Of a stretch of DNA of 64,000 nucleotides, positions 2,225 through 62,708 are shown one piece after another. A program made the position numbers and the translations under genes. Position 1 is the stretch's first letter. Every line of letters begins with the position of its first letter. Source of the DNA: Planococcus donghaensis (GTDB lineage Bacteria; Bacillota; Bacilli; Bacillales_A; Planococcaceae); the NCBI RefSeq assembly GCF_001687665.2, contig NZ_CP016543.2, forward strand, positions 2,852,001 through 2,916,000. Reading direction: 5' to 3'. Below the pieces are notes generated by a model. The model was given only the letters and a program-made list of their open reading frames with translations, did no database searches and was not told where the DNA came from.

Positions 2225-3302
2225 TCAGCACCCCGTAGACTTCCGCTTGAGCAATTACTTTTTTAGCCCAGCTCAAATGCGGTTTTACTTCGTTCATTTT
2301 ATTGCGTTTAGGGCTTTGTAAAACACCATTTCTTCCCTGGCTTTCATTAAGGATCAACTTGGCATCTTCATAAGCTTCGAGCGATATGATATGTCCAGCA
2401 TTAACAATTGATACTTGAGATGGATGAATACAAGTTTTCCCTTTAAAGCCGTTTAAAATATCCAATTGAACTTCTTCCCAAAGAGTTTGTTCTGGTTTTG
2501 ACGACAGCCATAGTTGTTCTCCGACAGAAAAATATTCATAGACAGGACCCGAAACGGTGAATCCGTCTTCTGAACGGCCAAACTGGTTTAATATGGCGAT
2601 TAAACAATCACGAATAATATGGACATCATAAACCGTTCGTTCCGCTGGTCGTCGCAAGCCATACAGGCTAGAAAAATCGGTTGCCCCCACGCGCACTGTC
2701 AAAATCCGTTCGGCTTCTGACTGAATAATTTTGTATAATTCCGCTAAAGTCTCCTCACGAGACTCACTGTACAACACTTCTTTTGTTTCCAGTAAAGGCA
2801 GGGCGTATAGCTTTCTACCCGCTGCTTCGCTAGCACGATCGAGTGCCTCAAAAAACAAGGGCAACGTGTCAGGTAAACATTTCGGAAAAACAATTCCTGT
2901 TATAACACTTAATGCGGTTCCGGCATTTTTGATCAATTTATCCAATTGATCCGGTGTACGAATTCGTAAAAACAAAACCGGACCGGCTGCCAATTGTTCA
3001 GCACTTGCTTCTTCGAGCTTTTTAAATTCATTTACTGTATTTTTTTCCGCTTGCTCTAGTTCTGTATCAGCTACTGCATCTTCTAGGCAGACAATTAACG
3101 TAGTTAAGCCAGTAAATGCACCTTTACTATACTCACCATTTAAAATCTTTTGAGCGAAATCCACTCTAGATCCCGGTGTATAAAGTGCTGCGCCTACTGC
3201 TAAACTTAATGTTTCCCGTTTTGTATCACGGTTAAATTCTGCCGGGGAATATTTAAAAAAAGTCTTTAAATCAGAATCGGTTAATCCGTTAAAATGTCTC
3301 AT
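2157..3302 (-). CDS. HpcH/HpaI aldolase / citrate lyase-like protein of ter operon
   Basis: The 381-residue product has the features of the HpcH/HpaI (citrate lyase beta) TIM-barrel family: an N-terminal LYTPGSR segment, VCLEDAVAD with the acidic metal-ligand residues, LFLRIRTPDQLDK, and KGKTCIHPSQVSIVN near the C-terminus. Enzymes of this fold cleave or form C-C bonds on acyl-CoA or small keto acids; the substrate of the ter-associated version is unknown. It is the first gene of the downstream part of the ter cluster, separated from the terD genes by a hairpin at 3368-3399. Its 3' end overlaps the PRTase gene by 68 bp. Confidence 0.86.
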   Translation of the reverse strand: MRHFNGLTDSDLKTFFKYSPAEFNRDTKRETLSLAVGAALYTPGSRVDFAQKILNGEYSKGAFTGLTTLIVCLEDAVADTELEQAEKNTVNEFKKLEEASAEQLAAGPVLFLRIRTPDQLDKLIKNAGTALSVITGIVFPKCLPDTLPLFFEALDRASEAAGRKLYALPLLETKEVLYSESREETLAELYKIIQSEAERILTVRVGATDFSSLYGLRRPAERTVYDVHIIRDCLIAILNQFGRSEDGFTVSGPVYEYFSVGEQLWLSSKPEQTLWEEVQLDILNGFKGKTCIHPSQVSIVNAGHIISLEAYEDAKLILNESQGRNGVLQSPKRNKMNEVKPHLSWAKKVIAQAEVYGVLNENYQPIDVLNHLRANQLSNQY

Positions 3303-3367
3303 ATATGATCCCTCCCGGCATGCTGCCGTAACAGCCCGTTCAAATTATCCATTCCTGTATGAATGGA

Positions 3368-3399
3368 GAAAAAGCAAGGAGACAGTCTCCTTGCTTTTC
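3368..3399 (-). terminator. Intrinsic terminator or attenuator between terD and the HpcH-like gene
   Basis: Arms AAGCAAGGAGAC and GTCTCCTTGCTT form a near-perfect stem just beyond the stop of the second terD. On the minus strand it is followed by a T-rich tract (TTTTTCTCC). As no obvious separate promoter was found for the HpcH-like gene, this may be a partial terminator giving more TerD than downstream enzymes. Confidence 0.75.
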
Positions 3400-3409
3400 C
3401 ATCGTTTCC

Positions 3410-3988
3410 TCAGCTGTTTAAGCCAAAGTCCTTCACAAGCGACTCTAAGCCACCTTGATAACCGCTGCCAATGGCATTAAATTTCCATTCTCCCCCGTGA
3501 CGGTAAAGTTCACCAACTACCACTGCGGTTTCAATTGAGAAATCTTCCCCTAGGTCGTAACGGATCAATTCTTCATTTGTATCGCCATTTACAATACGCA
3601 CATATGAATTGCTTACTTGGCCAAAGTTTTGACCGCGTGCTTCAGCATCATGAATCGTAATTGCAAAAGTGGCTTTTTCAATCGATGCAGGAATGGCTGA
3701 TAGGTTAACGTTTACTTGTTCGTCATCCCCTTCACCTTCACCTGTTTTGTTATCGCCCGTATGCTCTACAGCACCGCCAGCACCCGTCGTATTGTTGTAG
3801 AAGACGAAATCTGCTTCTGAAGCTGTTTTTCCTTCGCCATTTAATAGGAAGACTGAAGAATCTAAATCGAAATCTTGTCCGCCGTCGTATTTATTTGTAT
3901 CCCAGCCTAATCCCACAACTACTTTAGATAAACCTGGGTTACTTTTTGTTAAATCTACTTTTTGACCTTTTGATAAATTAATTGCCAT
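3410..3988 (-). CDS. TerD family protein
   Basis: This 192-residue protein starts [15 protein letters not shown] and carries the TerD calcium-site signatures [11 protein letters not shown] (about residues 39-50) and [13 protein letters not shown] (about 78-90). TerD proteins are Ca2+-binding cytoplasmic stress proteins of the tellurite-resistance and general-stress ter system. It is the second of two tandem terD paralogues, 14 bp behind the first, and matches the length of Bacillus YceD/YceE (about 190 residues). Confidence 0.93.
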
Positions 3989-4002
3989 TACTCCAACACT
4001 CC

Positions 4003-4617
4003 TTAAGAATATTTGTTTGCAATTGATCCGATATCAGGTTCTGATGCGCCTTCACCAATCGCCGAAAACTTCCATTCAGTTCCTTGACGGTAAAGTTCGC
4101 CTGTGATTAACGACATTTTGCCCGCATAGTTTTCTGTTAAGTTGTAATGAACCAGTTCCTCTTTCGACTGATTATCAACTAAACGAATAAATGCGTTTTC
4201 GATCATACCGAAATCTTGTTTCTTTTTCTGTGCGTTGTAAATGTTTACAACAAAAACTAAACGGTGAATTGACGGTGAAATTCGTTTTAAATCAATATTG
4301 ATCATTTCATCGTCGCCGTCACCTTCTCCAGTCAAGTTATCCCCTGAATGGACTACGCTGCCGTCTTTGCTTTTTTTGTTACCGAAATAGATCAAGTTTT
4401 CTTTTGCAGTCAACTTGCCGTTTTCGTCTAGTAATAGAACAGACGCGTCACAATCAACGTCAGCTCCGCCGCCTCCGCCGCCTAATAAATTACTTAAGAA
4501 GCCTCCACTTTTTTTGGTTGCAACTGGATCCCAGCCTAAGCCAACCATAATGCTCGAAAGCGATGAACGTCCTTTTGTTAAATCGATCTTTTGACCTTTT
4601 ACAAGATTAATCGCCAT
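4003..4617 (-). CDS. TerD family protein with inserted Gly-rich loop
   Basis: The product is a TerD paralogue of 204 residues from the ATG at 4617. I chose that start because GGAGAG lies about 9 nt upstream and it aligns with the MAINL start of the neighbour; a GTG three codons earlier is poorer. It differs from the neighbour by an insertion of about 14 residues ([17 protein letters not shown]) between the first strand and the acidic site, where the paralogue has [18 protein letters not shown] is intact. It is the first gene of the leftward ter operon and has a 5' untranslated region of about 180 nt. Confidence 0.92.
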
Positions 4618-6250: not shown

Positions 6251-8848
6251 ATGCAAAAGTTTCGACCTATTGTAGTTCTCATGCTCATCAGCCTAATCTT
6301 GTCGGCGATCGGACATCTTGTTTTTCTTCGTCAATGGTCTAATGATCATTTTATGGTAGGGATTAATGATGGCCTTTCACAAATGATGCCTTTTAAACAC
6401 CTTCTCTATCAGCAATATACTCAAGGCGAGTTTTTCTATTCTTTCGATTTTGGTATAGGGGCTGGCACGTTTAGTGAATTGTCTTATTATTTTTCTACTT
6501 CCATTGTATTTTTGGTAACAGTAATAATCGTCTCTATGCTCCAAACATTGCACATTATTCAGACTACCGATGTCTTGTTTTGGGCAAATGCTGCTGTTTT
6601 TATTAGCATTATTCGGTTAGCTGCTATCCTGTTTATCACCACTCGATTATTTATGTATATGAAAATATCTAAACCCGCAGCACTACTAGGCGCTTCACTT
6701 TACGGTATCTCTGGCATGTACTTCCGCCACGTGACGTATTGGGAATTTTTCGCGGATGCTTTTTTATGGCTCCCGATTTTACTGCTGGGGGTTGAAAAGA
6801 TTTTCCGTGAACAAAAGCCCGGCTGGTTTATAATTGCCGTAGCGATTTCCATGATTGATAACTTTTACTTTGCCTATATTAATCTATTACTGACCGCTAT
6901 TTATATTTTGTTCCGTTTGTTTATCCCGTTAGCAGTGAATGAACAAAGTAAAATGAAAAATATGATAAGCTTTTTGGTCGCCGGATCTATTGGTGCTGGC
7001 ATTAGTGCAGTATCGTTTATACCGGCAGTTTATGCCTATTTAAATAACCACCGGCCAGATTTTAAGCAAGAAATTCTTTGGGTGGACGAAGCTATTGATA
7101 ATATTTTATTTAGTAGCTCTATTATTGTCTTGCCTGCATTTTTTGTTCTTGTATTATTTAGCTGGTTTTTATACCGCAATAAAACATTCCGCTTGTTTGC
7201 GCTTCTTGGAATTGTCGCCATTATTATGCACAACAGTCCAATGATCGGCAGTGCTTTTAACGGATTTTCTGCACCGCAATATCGGTGGGAATACTTTTTG
7301 TCGTTAGTTATGGGTGGAGCCGTTGCGGTTGCCATTGACCATTTGCATAAATTCACGTGGCGAAGCTTTTTTATACCAGCTTTACTCGCGATTTTCAGCT
7401 TTTGGTTTTACACATGGAGAGATAAATATTTCGAAATAGATTCACAGTTTTCAACGCTATCCATTAATGCGCTAGTCATTACGTTTACACTGCTATTTTT
7501 GTACACTCTATTTAAGAAAGACTTTATTAAATGGACATTAATGGCATCCATATTGATTTGGACATTGCTTTTTGCCAATTTGTATCAAACTGAAAAAATT
7601 CTTGAAGAAGGAGACATTTCACAAGTTGGCAAAAAACTAATGACGGGTGTCGATTACAACGATCCCGAAATCATTGAATTGTTGGACTATATCCATGAAC
7701 AAGAAAACAATGGACCTTATCGCATCGATTGGATGGAAGGTGTCCGCAACAACACCCCAATTGTTCAAGATTTCCAAGGATTCAGTGCGTATTCGAGTAT
7801 TTTAAATGAAAATTTATTGTATTTTTATTTATATGACCTGGAAATCGATATGGGACGTGAAAGTGTCAGTCGCTATGCGACACTTGGCAATCGTGCAAAC
7901 TTGTACAGTATGCTACAAGGAAAATACATTATTCGTTCTCGTGGAGATTCCAATATTCCATATGGTTTCGATGAAATCCATGCGTCACCCAAATACATCA
8001 TTTATAAAAACAACTATGTCTTACCGTTCGCCCGTTCTACCGCTAACGTATACGAAGAACAGCAATTAGCGGCAGCCTCTCCATTAATGCGCGAACAAGC
8101 TATGTTGACCGGAGTCGTACTTGATCGAGGAGAAGTAGCTGATCCTTTACCAGAGCCGGATGAAAACATTCTCAACTTTGCTACCGTCCCAATCGGTGCT
8201 ACGTTTAACGATGGACTGTTAAAAGTAGTTGAAAGAACAGGTGGCTTAAATTTAAACTTGGACAATCCGCCTAAATCTGGTGGTGATTTATTCGTTTCTT
8301 TCCACTTGATAACAAAAGCAGAAGATCAAGGTTTTTTACTCGAAGTAAATGATTACCAAACGACAAGAAAATCCAATCAGTCGATTTACAAGACATTTGT
8401 AGATGACTTAACCATTCGTATTCCGGCTGAAGATCTGATTAAAATTCGGTTACCTAAGGGTGAATATGAAATAACAGAAATTCAAGTATATGCAGCTTCT
8501 TACCAAGCCCTGCGTAAACAAGCTGATGAGCCAGATTTATCTAGCAATTTATCAATTGATGGTAGCCAAGTCGAGTTGAATTTCGATAATGCAGCGCATG
8601 ATGAATTTTTAAAATTATCTATTCCTTATGAGCGTGGTTGGCGAGCGACAATTAACGGGGAAAAAGTAGAAGTTTTAAAAGCCGATTTTGCATTTATGGC
8701 CCTTCCATTAGAAGCCGGAAACAATAACATTTCTCTTTCTTACCGTCCGCCGTTTTTCAAACCTACGGCTGCAGTAAGTATAGTCTCCCTATTTCTTGGC
8801 TTCGTATTTGTTTTTCGTAAAAGAAGAAGGCAAAATGAAAAAATATAA
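6251..8848 (+). CDS. YfhO-family membrane glycosyltransferase (GT-C-like)
   Basis: The 865-residue product has about a dozen transmembrane helices in its first 450 residues and a large extracytoplasmic C-terminal region (about 460-835). A last helix and a basic tail (RKRRRQ) end the protein. This is the layout of YfhO. In B. subtilis and Listeria, YfhO-like proteins transfer the flipped sugar from undecaprenyl phosphate onto lipoteichoic acid outside the cell. It begins 19 bp after the GtrA-like gene, so synthase, flippase and transferase are in one operon, closed by a strong hairpin. Confidence 0.87.
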   Translation: MQKFRPIVVLMLISLILSAIGHLVFLRQWSNDHFMVGINDGLSQMMPFKHLLYQQYTQGEFFYSFDFGIGAGTFSELSYYFSTSIVFLVTVIIVSMLQTLHIIQTTDVLFWANAAVFISIIRLAAILFITTRLFMYMKISKPAALLGASLYGISGMYFRHVTYWEFFADAFLWLPILLLGVEKIFREQKPGWFIIAVAISMIDNFYFAYINLLLTAIYILFRLFIPLAVNEQSKMKNMISFLVAGSIGAGISAVSFIPAVYAYLNNHRPDFKQEILWVDEAIDNILFSSSIIVLPAFFVLVLFSWFLYRNKTFRLFALLGIVAIIMHNSPMIGSAFNGFSAPQYRWEYFLSLVMGGAVAVAIDHLHKFTWRSFFIPALLAIFSFWFYTWRDKYFEIDSQFSTLSINALVITFTLLFLYTLFKKDFIKWTLMASILIWTLLFANLYQTEKILEEGDISQVGKKLMTGVDYNDPEIIELLDYIHEQENNGPYRIDWMEGVRNNTPIVQDFQGFSAYSSILNENLLYFYLYDLEIDMGRESVSRYATLGNRANLYSMLQGKYIIRSRGDSNIPYGFDEIHASPKYIIYKNNYVLPFARSTANVYEEQQLAAASPLMREQAMLTGVVLDRGEVADPLPEPDENILNFATVPIGATFNDGLLKVVERTGGLNLNLDNPPKSGGDLFVSFHLITKAEDQGFLLEVNDYQTTRKSNQSIYKTFVDDLTIRIPAEDLIKIRLPKGEYEITEIQVYAASYQALRKQADEPDLSSNLSIDGSQVELNFDNAAHDEFLKLSIPYERGWRATINGEKVEVLKADFAFMALPLEAGNNNISLSYRPPFFKPTAAVSIVSLFLGFVFVFRKRRRQNEKI

Positions 8849-22729: not shown

Positions 22730-22755
22730 AGGCACATAACGAAGCCGATCTCTAC

Positions 22756-22920
22756 ATTCTTCTCCCATCCAGACTGTAACTGTCGGTGCCGGAATTTCAC
22801 CAGCTCCACCGGTTGAACGCTTCAAACATAGTGGCCTATGCTTGTCCTCGTTCAAACGGGTCACGGACTTGCAGTTTCCTGCTCACCGCCGGTAAGGAAT
22901 TTCACCTTGCCCCGAAGAAT
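22756..22920 (-). promoter_or_regulatory. FMN riboswitch (RFN element)
   Basis: The minus strand shows the conserved RFN pattern: P1 arms ATTCTTC and GAAGAAT at the two ends, GGGGCAAGGTGAAATTCC, ACCGGCGGT, AAGTCCGTGACCC, the CCGGTGGAGCTGGTGAAATT segment and CCGACAGT, GGATGGGAG. FMN binding should repress the rib genes downstream. The distance to the ORF leaves room for the SD-masking hairpin at 22698-22729. The rest of the gap up to 23049 holds the untranslated start and no other clear element. Confidence 0.96.
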
Positions 22921-23049
22921 TAGATTCGTAGTTTCGTCCTTTTAATAGTAGCATAGAAAGAAACTGAACCCTATCAATCAAACTGATTATTTTAAATTAA
23001 GAAGCGTTATTTCTAAATTTGCTTTTCTTATTCTAAAGGAGGAACTGAT

Positions 23050-47547: not shown

Positions 47548-47570
47548 AGCCTATATTAATATAGAAGAAA

Positions 47571-47595
47571 GCCGCTCCAGAAAATCTGGAGCGGC
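47571..47595. repeat. Left copy of the duplicated terminator hairpin (locus 1)
   Basis: Arms GCCGCTCCAG and CTGGAGCGGC with loop AAAAT. An A-rich stretch (AAGAAA) precedes it, but no T-tract follows, because the element starts directly after. It matches the right copy at 48168-48192 except for one T/C change in the loop. Confidence 0.9.
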
Positions 47596-48167
47596 AGTTT
47601 GTAGATAAAATAGTACTTACTCATTTTTTGTATGCATATAGGATTCTCCGCACCCAGTGGACGCTTTCCGCGGACTCCGCGCTGAGCCTCCTCGTCGCAA
47701 GCTCCTGCGGGGTCTCATCACTTCGTTTTTCCTCTGGAAAGTCAGTGACCGAAGGGACTTCGGACAGTGGCTTTGCGACGAAGCTAGCGCAGCGATGCAG
47801 GAGCATATCTTTGCCCTTCGCCACTTGGTGCTCCGAATCTTGGAGTGAGTAGAGGAAAAAACTTTTCATAAGTTATTTTTATGATGAAGCGTACTAAAGA
47901 ATCTTACTTTGTTTGTAGCAAGAAGCCTTCAACTGGGCTGGTCCACGGAGACTCCTGTGGGACAGCGAAAGCTGAAGACCCCGCAGGAATAGCATTGGCC
48001 GAAGCCTGCGAGGACAAGCTTTTGCGACGAAGCTAGCGCAGCGATGCAGGAGCATGGGTTTTCAGTGACGAGGAGGCTGAAGCTGAGCCCACGGAAAGCG
48101 AAGTGGCCAGCCCGGTTGAAGAGTATACATCACTATTTAGTTTAATAAGACTTTATACACAGTCTGA
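47596..48167 (+). mobile_element. Non-autonomous terminator-inserted element, copy 1 (572 bp)
   Basis: Left end AGTTTGTAGATAAA (with the preceding C, CAGTTTGTAGATAAA) and right end, read inwards, CAGACTGTGTATAAAG are inverted repeats. Inside are two GC-rich imperfect palindromes: module A (about 47641-47846) and module B (47927-48121, ends CTTCAACTGGGCTGG and CCAGCCCGGTTGAAG). Both share a core of about 34 bp containing GACGAAGCTAGCGCAGCGAT. The whole element recurs in inverted orientation at 61808-62378. It sits between two copies of one hairpin, here read as a target duplication. No transposase is encoded; short ORFs inside are palindrome by-products. Confidence 0.8.
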
Positions 48168-48194
48168 GCCGCTCCAGAAAACCTGGAGCGGCTC
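48166..48194. terminator. Right copy of the duplicated terminator hairpin (locus 1)
   Basis: Arms GAGCCGCTCCAG and CTGGAGCGGCTC with an AAAAC-type loop, followed by TTTTT. This copy has kept the T-tract and still works as terminator of the converging metQ gene and of the region upstream. Confidence 0.88.
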
Positions 48195-50776: not shown

Positions 50777-50796
50777 CGAAAATTTTAATTTCTCGA

Positions 50797-50897
50797 CTTA
50801 TCTTCCGAAATGCTTTTACATTTCGCAGGACTTGGCACCTTCCCAATTGGGGGTTGCCGGACGTCATAGGGCCTACCCCTCGGTCTCTCTTGATAAG
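50797..50897 (-). promoter_or_regulatory. metN: SAM-I (S-box) riboswitch of metNIQ
   Basis: On the minus strand P1 arms CTTATC and GATAAG enclose the S-box core: AGAGAGACCGAGGG, CCCTATGACGTCCGGCAACC, AAGGTGCCAAGTCCTGCGA and AAGATAAG. SAM represses the methionine importer. Confidence 0.96.
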
Positions 50898-50919
50898 TTG
50901 TTATATTAGATTGAATTTT

Positions 50920-60887: not shown

Positions 60888-61604
60888 ATGTTAGCCATGA
60901 AAAGCACACCTAACCATACAGGGGTTAAAATTAGCGGCGATTATTTTGATTTGGATGAGCTAAACTTAGCCATTTATAAAATGATTGGGCAAGAAGACCA
61001 GTATTATGGCTATGAAGGATCGAGAATGAGAATCCTTAGTATTTCCCATGAAATCCGGTGTGCCGCTCAAGGCGACCGTAATGTAGACTTTGTGTTTAAT
61101 GGTCTTCACGAACATACAATGAAGCAGCACGAATTAATTGCTCCTGATAAAAATATTTACTTTTCTACTGAAGTGTTGTGGCCTGAAGTAATTTATGCAG
61201 CAATCGCTTTAAAAGATTTCGTGAACTTCTACCAAAAGGATAAAGAATTTCCGTTTTGGGACGTGCACATCCCTACAATTCTTCGCTTTCAATCATTGGT
61301 TCTTGATTGTTTACAAGGGCATGTTCCAGAAGAGGAATTCGATGCTATCTTACAAGCCTTTAACCAACCGGGCTCCGTAAACGATTACGCTATCCAATAC
61401 GTAGACCTATTAAACTTAAAATACATCGGCATGACTAAAAAGCAACGTGAACAAAGTCTATCAACGATCGCAATGAAAATCGCAGTACAAGATCAAGATT
61501 ACACAGCGTTTCGCAACCAAGTAATCGCCGCGGCTTCTCCACATAAAAAGCCGATACACGAAATTTCCATAAAAGCCGAATATCCGGAAAACTTTGAGTG
61601 GTGA
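60888..61604 (+). CDS. Conserved hypothetical protein (DUF6904-like)
   Basis: From the ATG at 60888 (AAGGGGGA 7 nt upstream) the protein has 238 residues; a longer frame would overlap rluF. It starts MLAMKSTPNHTGVKISGDYFDLDELNLAIY and contains GYEGSRMRILSISHEIRCAAQGDRN and EVLWPEVIYAAIALKDFV. It is soluble and lacks an obvious catalytic motif. I recall a similar family labelled DUF6904 but am not certain. It lies 13 bp behind rluF and is probably co-transcribed. Confidence 0.75.
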   Translation: MLAMKSTPNHTGVKISGDYFDLDELNLAIYKMIGQEDQYYGYEGSRMRILSISHEIRCAAQGDRNVDFVFNGLHEHTMKQHELIAPDKNIYFSTEVLWPEVIYAAIALKDFVNFYQKDKEFPFWDVHIPTILRFQSLVLDCLQGHVPEEEFDAILQAFNQPGSVNDYAIQYVDLLNLKYIGMTKKQREQSLSTIAMKIAVQDQDYTAFRNQVIAAASPHKKPIHEISIKAEYPENFEW

Positions 61605-61616
61605 ACAGAAAAGTGA

Positions 61617-61715
61617 AAGTGCCTGTTCAGCTCCGACAGGCATAAGGCAGAACAGCAGTGTGGCGCTCTTTGCCACGCAGCTGGGTTGCCTTATGTCCCG
61701 AGGAGCTAGGCACTT
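61617..61715. repeat. 99-bp branched palindromic element, with a truncated second copy at about 61730-61772
   Basis: Nested inverted arms close in order: AAGTGCCT/AGGCACTT, AGCTCC/GGAGCT, GACAGGCATAAGGCA/TGCCTTATGTCC and an inner stem GTGTGGC/GCCACGC. They form one long branched structure without a T-tract. A second, partial copy (GGCTGCCATG...CGACGGGCATAAG) follows at about 61730-61772. The pattern suggests a palindromic intergenic repeat or a structured RNA. With the mobile element it fills the 783-bp gap 61605-62387; no ORF there is credible. Confidence 0.65.
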
Positions 61716-61780
61716 GCAACTAGACTAGAAAAGCGCAGGCTGCCATGTAGATTCGACGGGCATAAGTACAGAAATCAAAA

Positions 61781-61807
61781 AAGCTCACGCTAACAATGCG
61801 TGAGCTT
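61781..61807. repeat. Left copy of the duplicated terminator hairpin (locus 2)
   Basis: Arms AAGCTCACGC and GCGTGAGCTT with loop TAACAAT, preceded by an A-tract (CAAAA) that is a T-tract on the minus strand. It is identical in all 27 bp to the copy at 62379-62405. Confidence 0.92.
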
Positions 61808-62378
61808 CAGACTGTAGACAAAGTCTTATTAAACTGAATAGTAATGCATAATCTCCAACTGGGCTGGCCACTTCGCTTTCCGTGGGCTCAGCTTCAGCCT
61901 CCTCGTCACTGAAAACCCATGCTCCTGCATCGCTGCGCTAGCTTCGTCGCAAAAGCTTGTCCTCGCAGGCTTCGGCCAATGCTATTCCTGCGGGGTCTTC
62001 AGCTTTCGCTGTCCCACAGGAGTCTTCGTGGACCAGCCCAGTTGAAGGCTTCTTGCTGCAAACAAAGTGAGATTCTATAGTGCGCTTCACCGTATAAACA
62101 ACGTGGTAAAACATTTTCCCTACTCACTCCAGGATTCGGAGCACCTAGTGGCGAAGGGCAAAGATATGCTCCTGCATCGCTGCGCTAGCTTCGTCGCAAA
62201 GCCACTGCCCGAACTCCCTTCGGTCACTGACTTTCCAGAGGAAAAACGAAGTGATGAGACCCCGCAGGAGCTTGCGACGAGGAGGCTCAGCGCGGAGTCC
62301 GCGGAAAGCGTCCACTAGGTGTGGAGAATCCCATATGCATACAAAGAAATGAGTAAATATTTTTTTGTCTACAAGCTG
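61808..62378 (-). mobile_element. Non-autonomous terminator-inserted element, copy 2 (571 bp)
   Basis: This is the reverse-orientation homologue of 47596-48167 along its full length. Its ends are CAGACTGTAGACAAAGTC (61808 inwards) and CAGCTTGTAGACAAA (62378 inwards), clear terminal inverted repeats. Module B lies at about 61853-62047 and module A at about 62129-62332. It is bounded on both sides by the same 27-bp hairpin, different in sequence from the hairpin at copy 1. GC content of the modules is visibly higher than that of flanking genes. No transposase is encoded. Confidence 0.82.
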
Positions 62379-62405
62379 AAGCTCACGCTAACAATGCGTG
62401 AGCTT
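62379..62405. terminator. Right copy of the duplicated terminator hairpin (locus 2), overlapping cupin gene end
   Basis: It is the same 27-bp hairpin as 61781-61807, followed by TTTTTT on the plus strand. Its minus strand encodes the last codons (KLTHC) and stop of the cupin gene. Confidence 0.9.
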
Positions 62406-62708
62406 TTTTGATGCCATAATATGCAGAACAACTAAGTCACTTGGTTCCAGTGCCGTCAACCTATGTCTTTCATTGGACTTTATATGAAGAATATTTTCAG
62501 AAGTCCCTTCAACAACTTTCCCTTCTACTTTAAAAGAAACCTTTCCACTCCACACAACAATGAGAGTATCCGCTGCTGAGTCATACTCCGGAATAGTTTC
62601 TCCAATTTGCAATTGTATATTTACTACATTGGTGTTTTCAAAGCTTAATATTTTTTGAACATGTTTACTTTTCTCACCCAGTAGATTAGGAGTTTCAATC
62701 CATTCCAT
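62388..62708 (-). CDS. Small single-domain cupin protein
   Basis: The 106-residue protein has a single cupin barrel: VNIQLQIGETIPEYDSAADTLIVVWSGKVSFKVEGK and NILHIKSNERHRLTALEPSDLVVLHIM. The usual cupin 1 metal residues (HxH...E) are only partly present: the first motif reads IPEYDSA and the second has NERHR, so metal binding is uncertain. Function is unknown. The last five codons lie in the terminator hairpin used as target by the mobile element. Confidence 0.82.
   Translation of the reverse strand: MEWIETPNLLGEKSKHVQKILSFENTNVVNIQLQIGETIPEYDSAADTLIVVWSGKVSFKVEGKVVEGTSENILHIKSNERHRLTALEPSDLVVLHIMASKKLTHC

Follow-up and report, generated by a model that had tools for sequence, protein, structure and literature searches.

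In the window (the whole 64,000-nucleotide stretch of Planococcus donghaensis DNA analysed here), a short element stands between two identical hairpins, which raises the question of what such an element recognizes when it inserts and how a hairpin comes to lie on either side of it. The element (copy 2) is 571 bp long and occupies positions 61808–62378 (+ strand). Its terminal repeats are 15 bp long and imperfect: the left one, CAGACTGTAGACAAA (61808–61822, + strand), is common to many Bacillota and to elements with an IS1182 transposase, and the right one (62364–62378) reads CAGCTTGTAGACAAA on the − strand. Copy 2 encodes no transposase, its sole open reading frame of at least 60 amino acids being 83 amino acids long; because it has no transposase of its own, the element is called non-autonomous. 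No match to the element was found in phages; among plasmids, three Priestia records match 10–12% of it.

The flanking hairpins of copy 2 (61781–61807 and 62379–62405) are the same over all 27 bp, as a sequence-only reading of this locus had noted, and the T-tract of the original terminator comes directly after the right copy. Folding gives each repeat a stem of 10 bp and a loop of 7 nt, and the predicted energies as DNA are −11.6 kcal/mol (left) and −11.7 kcal/mol (right), with z scores of −5.4 and −5.0 and none of 200 shuffles folding as well. In the undamaged target the palindrome runs on through the A- and T-tracts, with 17-nt arms, so that the duplicated part consists of the G+C stem and two A:T pairs. 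The earlier description of a perfectly duplicated 27-bp terminator hairpin is correct, with the amendment that the palindrome is not duplicated entire. A simple terminator scan of 61500–62700 reported the left hairpin on the − strand (two reports in total, close to the shuffle mean of 1.1) and missed the right copy on the + strand. Two weak Rfam matches, below the gathering score, both cover the right hairpin.

The copies in the window and their empty sites

The element recurs in inverse orientation at 47595–48166 (copy 1, 572 bp, − strand), to which copy 2 aligns in two long arms (92% and 96%). The hairpins of copy 1, AGCCGCTCCAG.../...CTGGAGCGGC, are unrelated in sequence to those of copy 2. 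The left one lies at 47570–47595, its last base being also the first base of the element, and the right one at 48167–48192, followed by a T-tract; they differ from each other at one base. On the strength of this one mismatch, copy 2 had been called the younger insertion. The private differences in an alignment of four full-length copies (24 in copy 1, 4 in copy 2, 3 in L032 and 13 in L033) agree with this order; the two copies may have had different sources, and the data point weakly to copy 2 as the younger. A 35-bp perfect direct repeat is present inside both copies (61919–61953 and 62166–62200 in copy 2; 47772–47806 and 48021–48055 in copy 1), and in several further copies of the element.

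Relatives were compared at both sites for presence or absence of the element. At the site of copy 1, 29 loci were tried, of which 18 had no match to the left flank. Ten of the 11 compared (L270–L279) carry one related hairpin; in the eleventh (L280) another repeat intervenes and the compared stretch ends before any hairpin. In the relative G007 (L270), the bases bordering the site agree with those at copy 1, and a single hairpin, AGCCGCTCCAGAAAATCTGGAGCGGC, precedes the T-tract. At the site of copy 2, 12 loci were tried, three had no match to the right flank, and all nine that were compared (L240–L242 and L244–L249) have a single AAGCTCACGC-like hairpin. Since the hairpin stands alone at the empty sites, the duplication was made by the insertion.

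The hairpin as target in the host genome and across Bacillota

BLAST with the element against the 3.32 Mb of the host genome (two contigs) gave 64 matches at 29 loci; two of these (L057 and L059) are halves of one element, leaving 28 places, grouped by eye. Hairpins are found on both sides at 19 of the 28 places (L031, L032, L034–L046, L050, L052, L053 and L057/L059). Seventeen of these came from an automatic search for direct repeats beside the ends, in which palindromes were not required, and two (L032 and L057/L059) were recognized by eye; the repeats are perfect in 6 of the 17. By eye, five further places (L033, L048, L051, L054 and L055) have a hairpin left at one of their ends or show a decayed pair, and four (L047, L049, L056 and L058) are fragments without usable ends. 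Flanks that were mostly unstructured or unrepeated were sought across the genome copies and not found.

Several host copies have additional features. In L039, an IS231-like element of the IS4 family is nested in the element copy (about 2810–4455 of that locus), with an 11-bp duplication, and the copy in L057/L059 is split by a similar insertion. Relative to the interior, the terminal pentamers are swapped in L045 and alike at both ends in L050, as if ends and interior could undergo inversion or conversion separately.

To look beyond the host, one genome per species was screened for a 19-base end of the element, CAGACTGTAGACAAAGTCT, which was found in at least 120 stretches. Among the matches listed are Planococcus, Macrococcus/Macrococcoides, Salisediminibacterium, Pseudoramibacter, Enterococcus and many uncultured Clostridia, as well as a small number of metagenome bins whose labels name other phyla. 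Of 122 ends, three left ends with less than 45 nt of flank and one duplicate flank were set aside. In the remaining 118 left junctions, among the matches listed, a hairpin at least as stable as −10 kcal/mol lies in the last 36 nt before the junction in 105 cases, against 9.2% of 2078 random positions from the same loci; 13 miss this threshold and five of these lie above −7 kcal/mol. The strong-hairpin share, among these matches, is 89% at the junction, 25% at 5 nt before it and 31% at 15 nt after it. A second, lower peak (47%), some 40 nt into the element, comes from structure of the element itself.

Among the matches listed, 53 insertions from several genera, the host included, could be resolved at both ends, using a search for direct repeats that did not ask for symmetry. 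In this set the repeats are 16–40 bp long (mean 26.5, sd 5.4) and perfect in 24 cases; the centre of the duplication lies within 1 nt of the hairpin axis in 46, and for 47 none of 200 shuffles gave a better fold. Duplication length is correlated with hairpin length (r = 0.66) and with the length of the G+C-bounded stem (r = 0.59), with automatically set stem bounds that ran into the A/T tracts in some of the 53 rows. In 32 of the 53, on either side, the duplication extends 1–3 nt beyond the outermost G:C pair.

The hairpin, then, is the target and gets duplicated. The sequence-only reading had proposed, from the two copies in the window, that the target is a structure and not a sequence; this is borne out at the 19 host places and in the 53 insertions from several genera, where the hairpins differ from one another and each is duplicated. 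The structures targeted look like intrinsic terminators. At all 49 sites that could be oriented (four of the 53 rows could not), an open reading frame of at least 50 codons ends no more than 200 nt away on at least one side, and at 34 on both sides, by a permissive count made without a control. A fixed orientation of the element relative to the T-tract was also considered and is rejected, with 21 of these 49 sites for, 21 against and 7 ties.

Comparison of 450-nt flanks identified orthologous insertion sites. Within the 53 there are four such pairs (L035/L091, L050/L062, L114/L184 and L162/L177), reducing the set to 49 sites. At four terminators (L035/L091, L053/L097, L054/L061 and L162/L177), a count that takes in three sites resolved at one end only, the element lies in opposite orientations in two species, and these are therefore independent insertions. 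In the pairs L061/L138 and L114/L184 the element points the same way and may have been inherited from a common ancestor; for the orthologous site L050/L062, independence cannot be judged from orientation.

The candidate transposase and the proposed route of insertion

An open gene lies just inside the same end in L095, L132, L127, L155 and L158, and in the partial L129 and L160, and the encoded proteins are mutually similar. The products of L127 and L158 belong to the IS1182 family (NF033551, E values of 1.9e-140 and 8.3e-134, far above the curated cut-off), that of L127 having the domains DDE_Tnp_1_6 and DUF772. The hairpin duplications on the two sides of L132 (Macrococcoides) and L158 (Salisediminibacterium) are perfect and measure 25 and 27 bp, respectively, and the hairpins at the two ends of L127 differ. 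Inside the left end of L132 (about 2380–2429, − strand) and of L158 (about 7852–7902, − strand), a hairpin with a T run was noticed by eye; it is perhaps an inward-facing terminator of the autonomous members' own.

The host genome (G000) has no match to NF033551 at an E value of 1e-3. Since it is without an IS1182 transposase, the acting enzyme is deduced from relatives, and the host copies are now orphans. An IS1182 match of some kind is present in 20 of 46 genomes of the genus, and one above the cut-off in 6 of 46. A search for the parent covered 30 loci (L209–L238), ten of which match one end with at most two mismatches. In the six whose flanks were read, a matching end stands beside a hairpin only in the truncated L218 (G044) and the relic L227 (G007). 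Weaker end matches were seen in L212, L216, L220/L236, L221, L228 and L231, and a distant one in L225. The element has the features by which a MITE is recognized (short length, terminal inverted repeats, target duplication, no transposase, occurrence at 28 places), 571 bp being long for a MITE. Judged by their ends, copy 2 and its kin are non-autonomous IS1182-type elements.

Very probably, an IS1182-family DDE transposase acting in trans brought copy 2, a miniature transposon that is non-autonomous, to this site, where the insertion duplicated a terminator hairpin. It is proposed that both 3′ ends of the transposon would join opposite strands at the 5′ foot of an extruded hairpin, either a cruciform or single-stranded. 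With the ends joined at the hairpin's two 5′ feet, the stagger would be the hairpin itself, and gap repair would copy it; we infer that cutting and joining of this kind is the simplest account of the duplications. For each direction of transcription, the nearer hairpin would lose its T-tract and the farther would keep it, and because the T-tract is kept at the farther hairpin, the genes on both sides would retain a usable terminator. If so, terminators would be a safe harbour for the element.

A variant of this proposal takes as target not a cruciform in duplex DNA but a single-stranded hairpin at a replication fork; it is less likely, and we give it some weight. Any palindrome is open to folding in single-stranded DNA. 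Against this, two symmetric joins on opposite strands would be made most simply in a cruciform, and no orientation preference relative to the A/T tracts was seen in the counts given above, which do not bear on the direction of the fork.

A different explanation is that insertion is broad and the preference only apparent, the copies beyond gene ends being those that persist. Harmful insertions are lost in any genome, and the nearby ends of open reading frames at all oriented sites, in the permissive count without a control given above, would be expected from such a bias. Selection, however, does not set the junction on the foot of the hairpin, from which the strong-hairpin share falls off on both sides, nor would it centre 46 of 53 duplications on the dyad or bring the element twice to the same terminators; survival bias is therefore quite improbable as the source of the pattern.

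Still less probable is that the element replaces the hairpin in the manner of IS1272, the two flanking hairpins being something else. In the available text on the Staphylococcus elements, TnSha1 and IS1272 insert in hairpins, several of them confirmed terminators, and delete part of them with no duplication (PMC4923244), and IS1272 replaces inverted repeats (PMC5678879). As far as these sources describe them, they resemble the present element in having an IS1182-family DDE transposase, 16-bp terminal repeats and hairpin targets without a sequence consensus; they differ in that the hairpin is deleted or replaced with no target duplication, whereas the present element duplicates it whole (PMC4923244, PMC5678879). 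The shared transposase family speaks for replacement, as does a lineage within the genus, made up of elements ending in CTGTCCC and their short derivatives (L342–L361). Twenty copies of these were fetched, of which 16 were resolved and four were not. An exact direct repeat is present in none of the 16, and in 14 the flanks pair over at least 8 nt, the conserved GGGG/CCCC included, in a count made without a control for pairing. From the anatomy of their flanks, the CTGTCCC elements seem to replace the terminator stem-loop, as in the published mode. For the element of copy 2, replacement is contradicted by the empty sites, both flanks being copies of the hairpin that stands alone in relatives.

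That the family is moved by the IS4-family transposase whose gene sits within one element copy (L039) can be dismissed, as the IS231-like element there is bounded by ends and an 11-bp duplication of its own and is thus a later insertion, and the transposases encoded by elements with the right ends are of the IS1182 family.

Hairpin processing in related lineages and known systems

The insertion of copy 2 into a terminator hairpin, with duplication, can be set beside other IS1182 lineages of the genus. In the L211–L214 lineage, whose ends read GAGGCCACTG or, as also written, GAGGCCACTGAAAAAC, the arms of one terminator hairpin lie on either side of the element and the repeat is limited to 6–9 bases around the loop, as read by eye. 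The empty site of L213, in L363–L365, is a GGAGCC TAAAATTA GGCTCC hairpin, the 8-bp middle of which is duplicated in L213; an empty site for L212 was not seen, the compared relatives having unrelated terminators. A fourth lineage, with TTTCATAAC ends (L215, L231 and L238), has no hairpin evident to the eye. A tree was built from 16 transposases, 15 of which belong to four groups, and a single branch sets each group apart from the remaining sequences. The hairpin-duplicating group has support values of 92/99, with a warning from the program that long branches meet. The rows for L155, L160, L216, L217 and L232 were assigned to groups by ends or likeness and not by a resolved insertion.

We lean towards the view that, in this one genus, separate IS1182 lineages process a terminator-hairpin target in three ways: duplication of the whole hairpin (CAGACTG ends), duplication centred on the loop (GAGGCCACTG ends) and replacement of the stem-loop (CTGTCCC ends). 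Replacement is here read from flank anatomy, and loop duplication from four sites examined by eye, one of them with empty sites. The three outcomes are the three branches of a published model, with joining at the 5′ foot, the loop and the 3′ foot, respectively. As given in the figure and its legend (Fig. 13), joining at the 5′ foot (pathway b) duplicates the stem-loop and joining at the loop duplicates the loop; whole-hairpin duplication is drawn there without an example (PMC5678879). If the three-way processing is true, the family is a natural experiment on the positions at which a DDE enzyme cuts an extruded hairpin.

The literature accessible to us contains several partial parallels. IS1182 members "targeting palindromes" were reported by Siguier et al. 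2015 (cited in PMC4923244 and PMC5678879), according to PMC5678879 without detailed data; this palindromic target, a trait of some members of the family, is present in the element described here. Duplications of 4 bp are apparently listed for IS1182 members in the text seen of PMC3196728 and PMC3281130. Insertion sequences that target REP palindromes (PMC1525189) are likewise aimed at palindromic extragenic DNA; REP targets are a sequence family, whereas the hairpins found here share no sequence.

The 53 insertions of the present family can also be compared with elements of other kinds. For most DDE transposons, the duplicated target is short and its length is fixed. IS1549 and IS1634-type elements make long and variable target duplications, as here, with a transposase of another family; their duplications are not known to be hairpins. 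Group IIC introns, which likewise land at terminator hairpins, are RNA-based retroelements and duplicate no target; the two Rfam matches of the 64-kb window at the gathering score include no intron model. IS231 and MIC231, of the IS4 family, have IS231 ends and duplications of 11–12 bp, and are unlike the present element both in their ends and in the size and shape of the duplications, which are here hairpin-shaped and 16–40 bp long.

The IS1182 family and its terminator-hairpin target are thus known already from IS1272, and what is new is duplication of the whole hairpin as the outcome. No published report of whole-hairpin duplication by an IS1182 element was found in the literature accessible to us; subscription papers, reviews or ISfinder may hold one. 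In the present family, the length of the duplication goes with the shape of the target, in several dozen natural cases, some with empty sites, and one branch of a proposed mechanism becomes directly testable in vitro. A terminator that is duplicated and not broken suggests that a transposon may spread between genes at low cost. Searches for element ends that expect short duplications of fixed length would probably misplace the ends of such an element.

Two further features of the window were noted. Copy 2 is adjoined directly on its left, at 61604–61767, by another high-copy repeat (GAAAAGTGAAAGTGCC...), which matches many times in a search of 46 genomes, is tandem in several genomes of the genus and has no Rfam match at the gathering score. 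FMN and SAM riboswitches lie at 22753–22923 and 50795–50899, respectively, both on the − strand.
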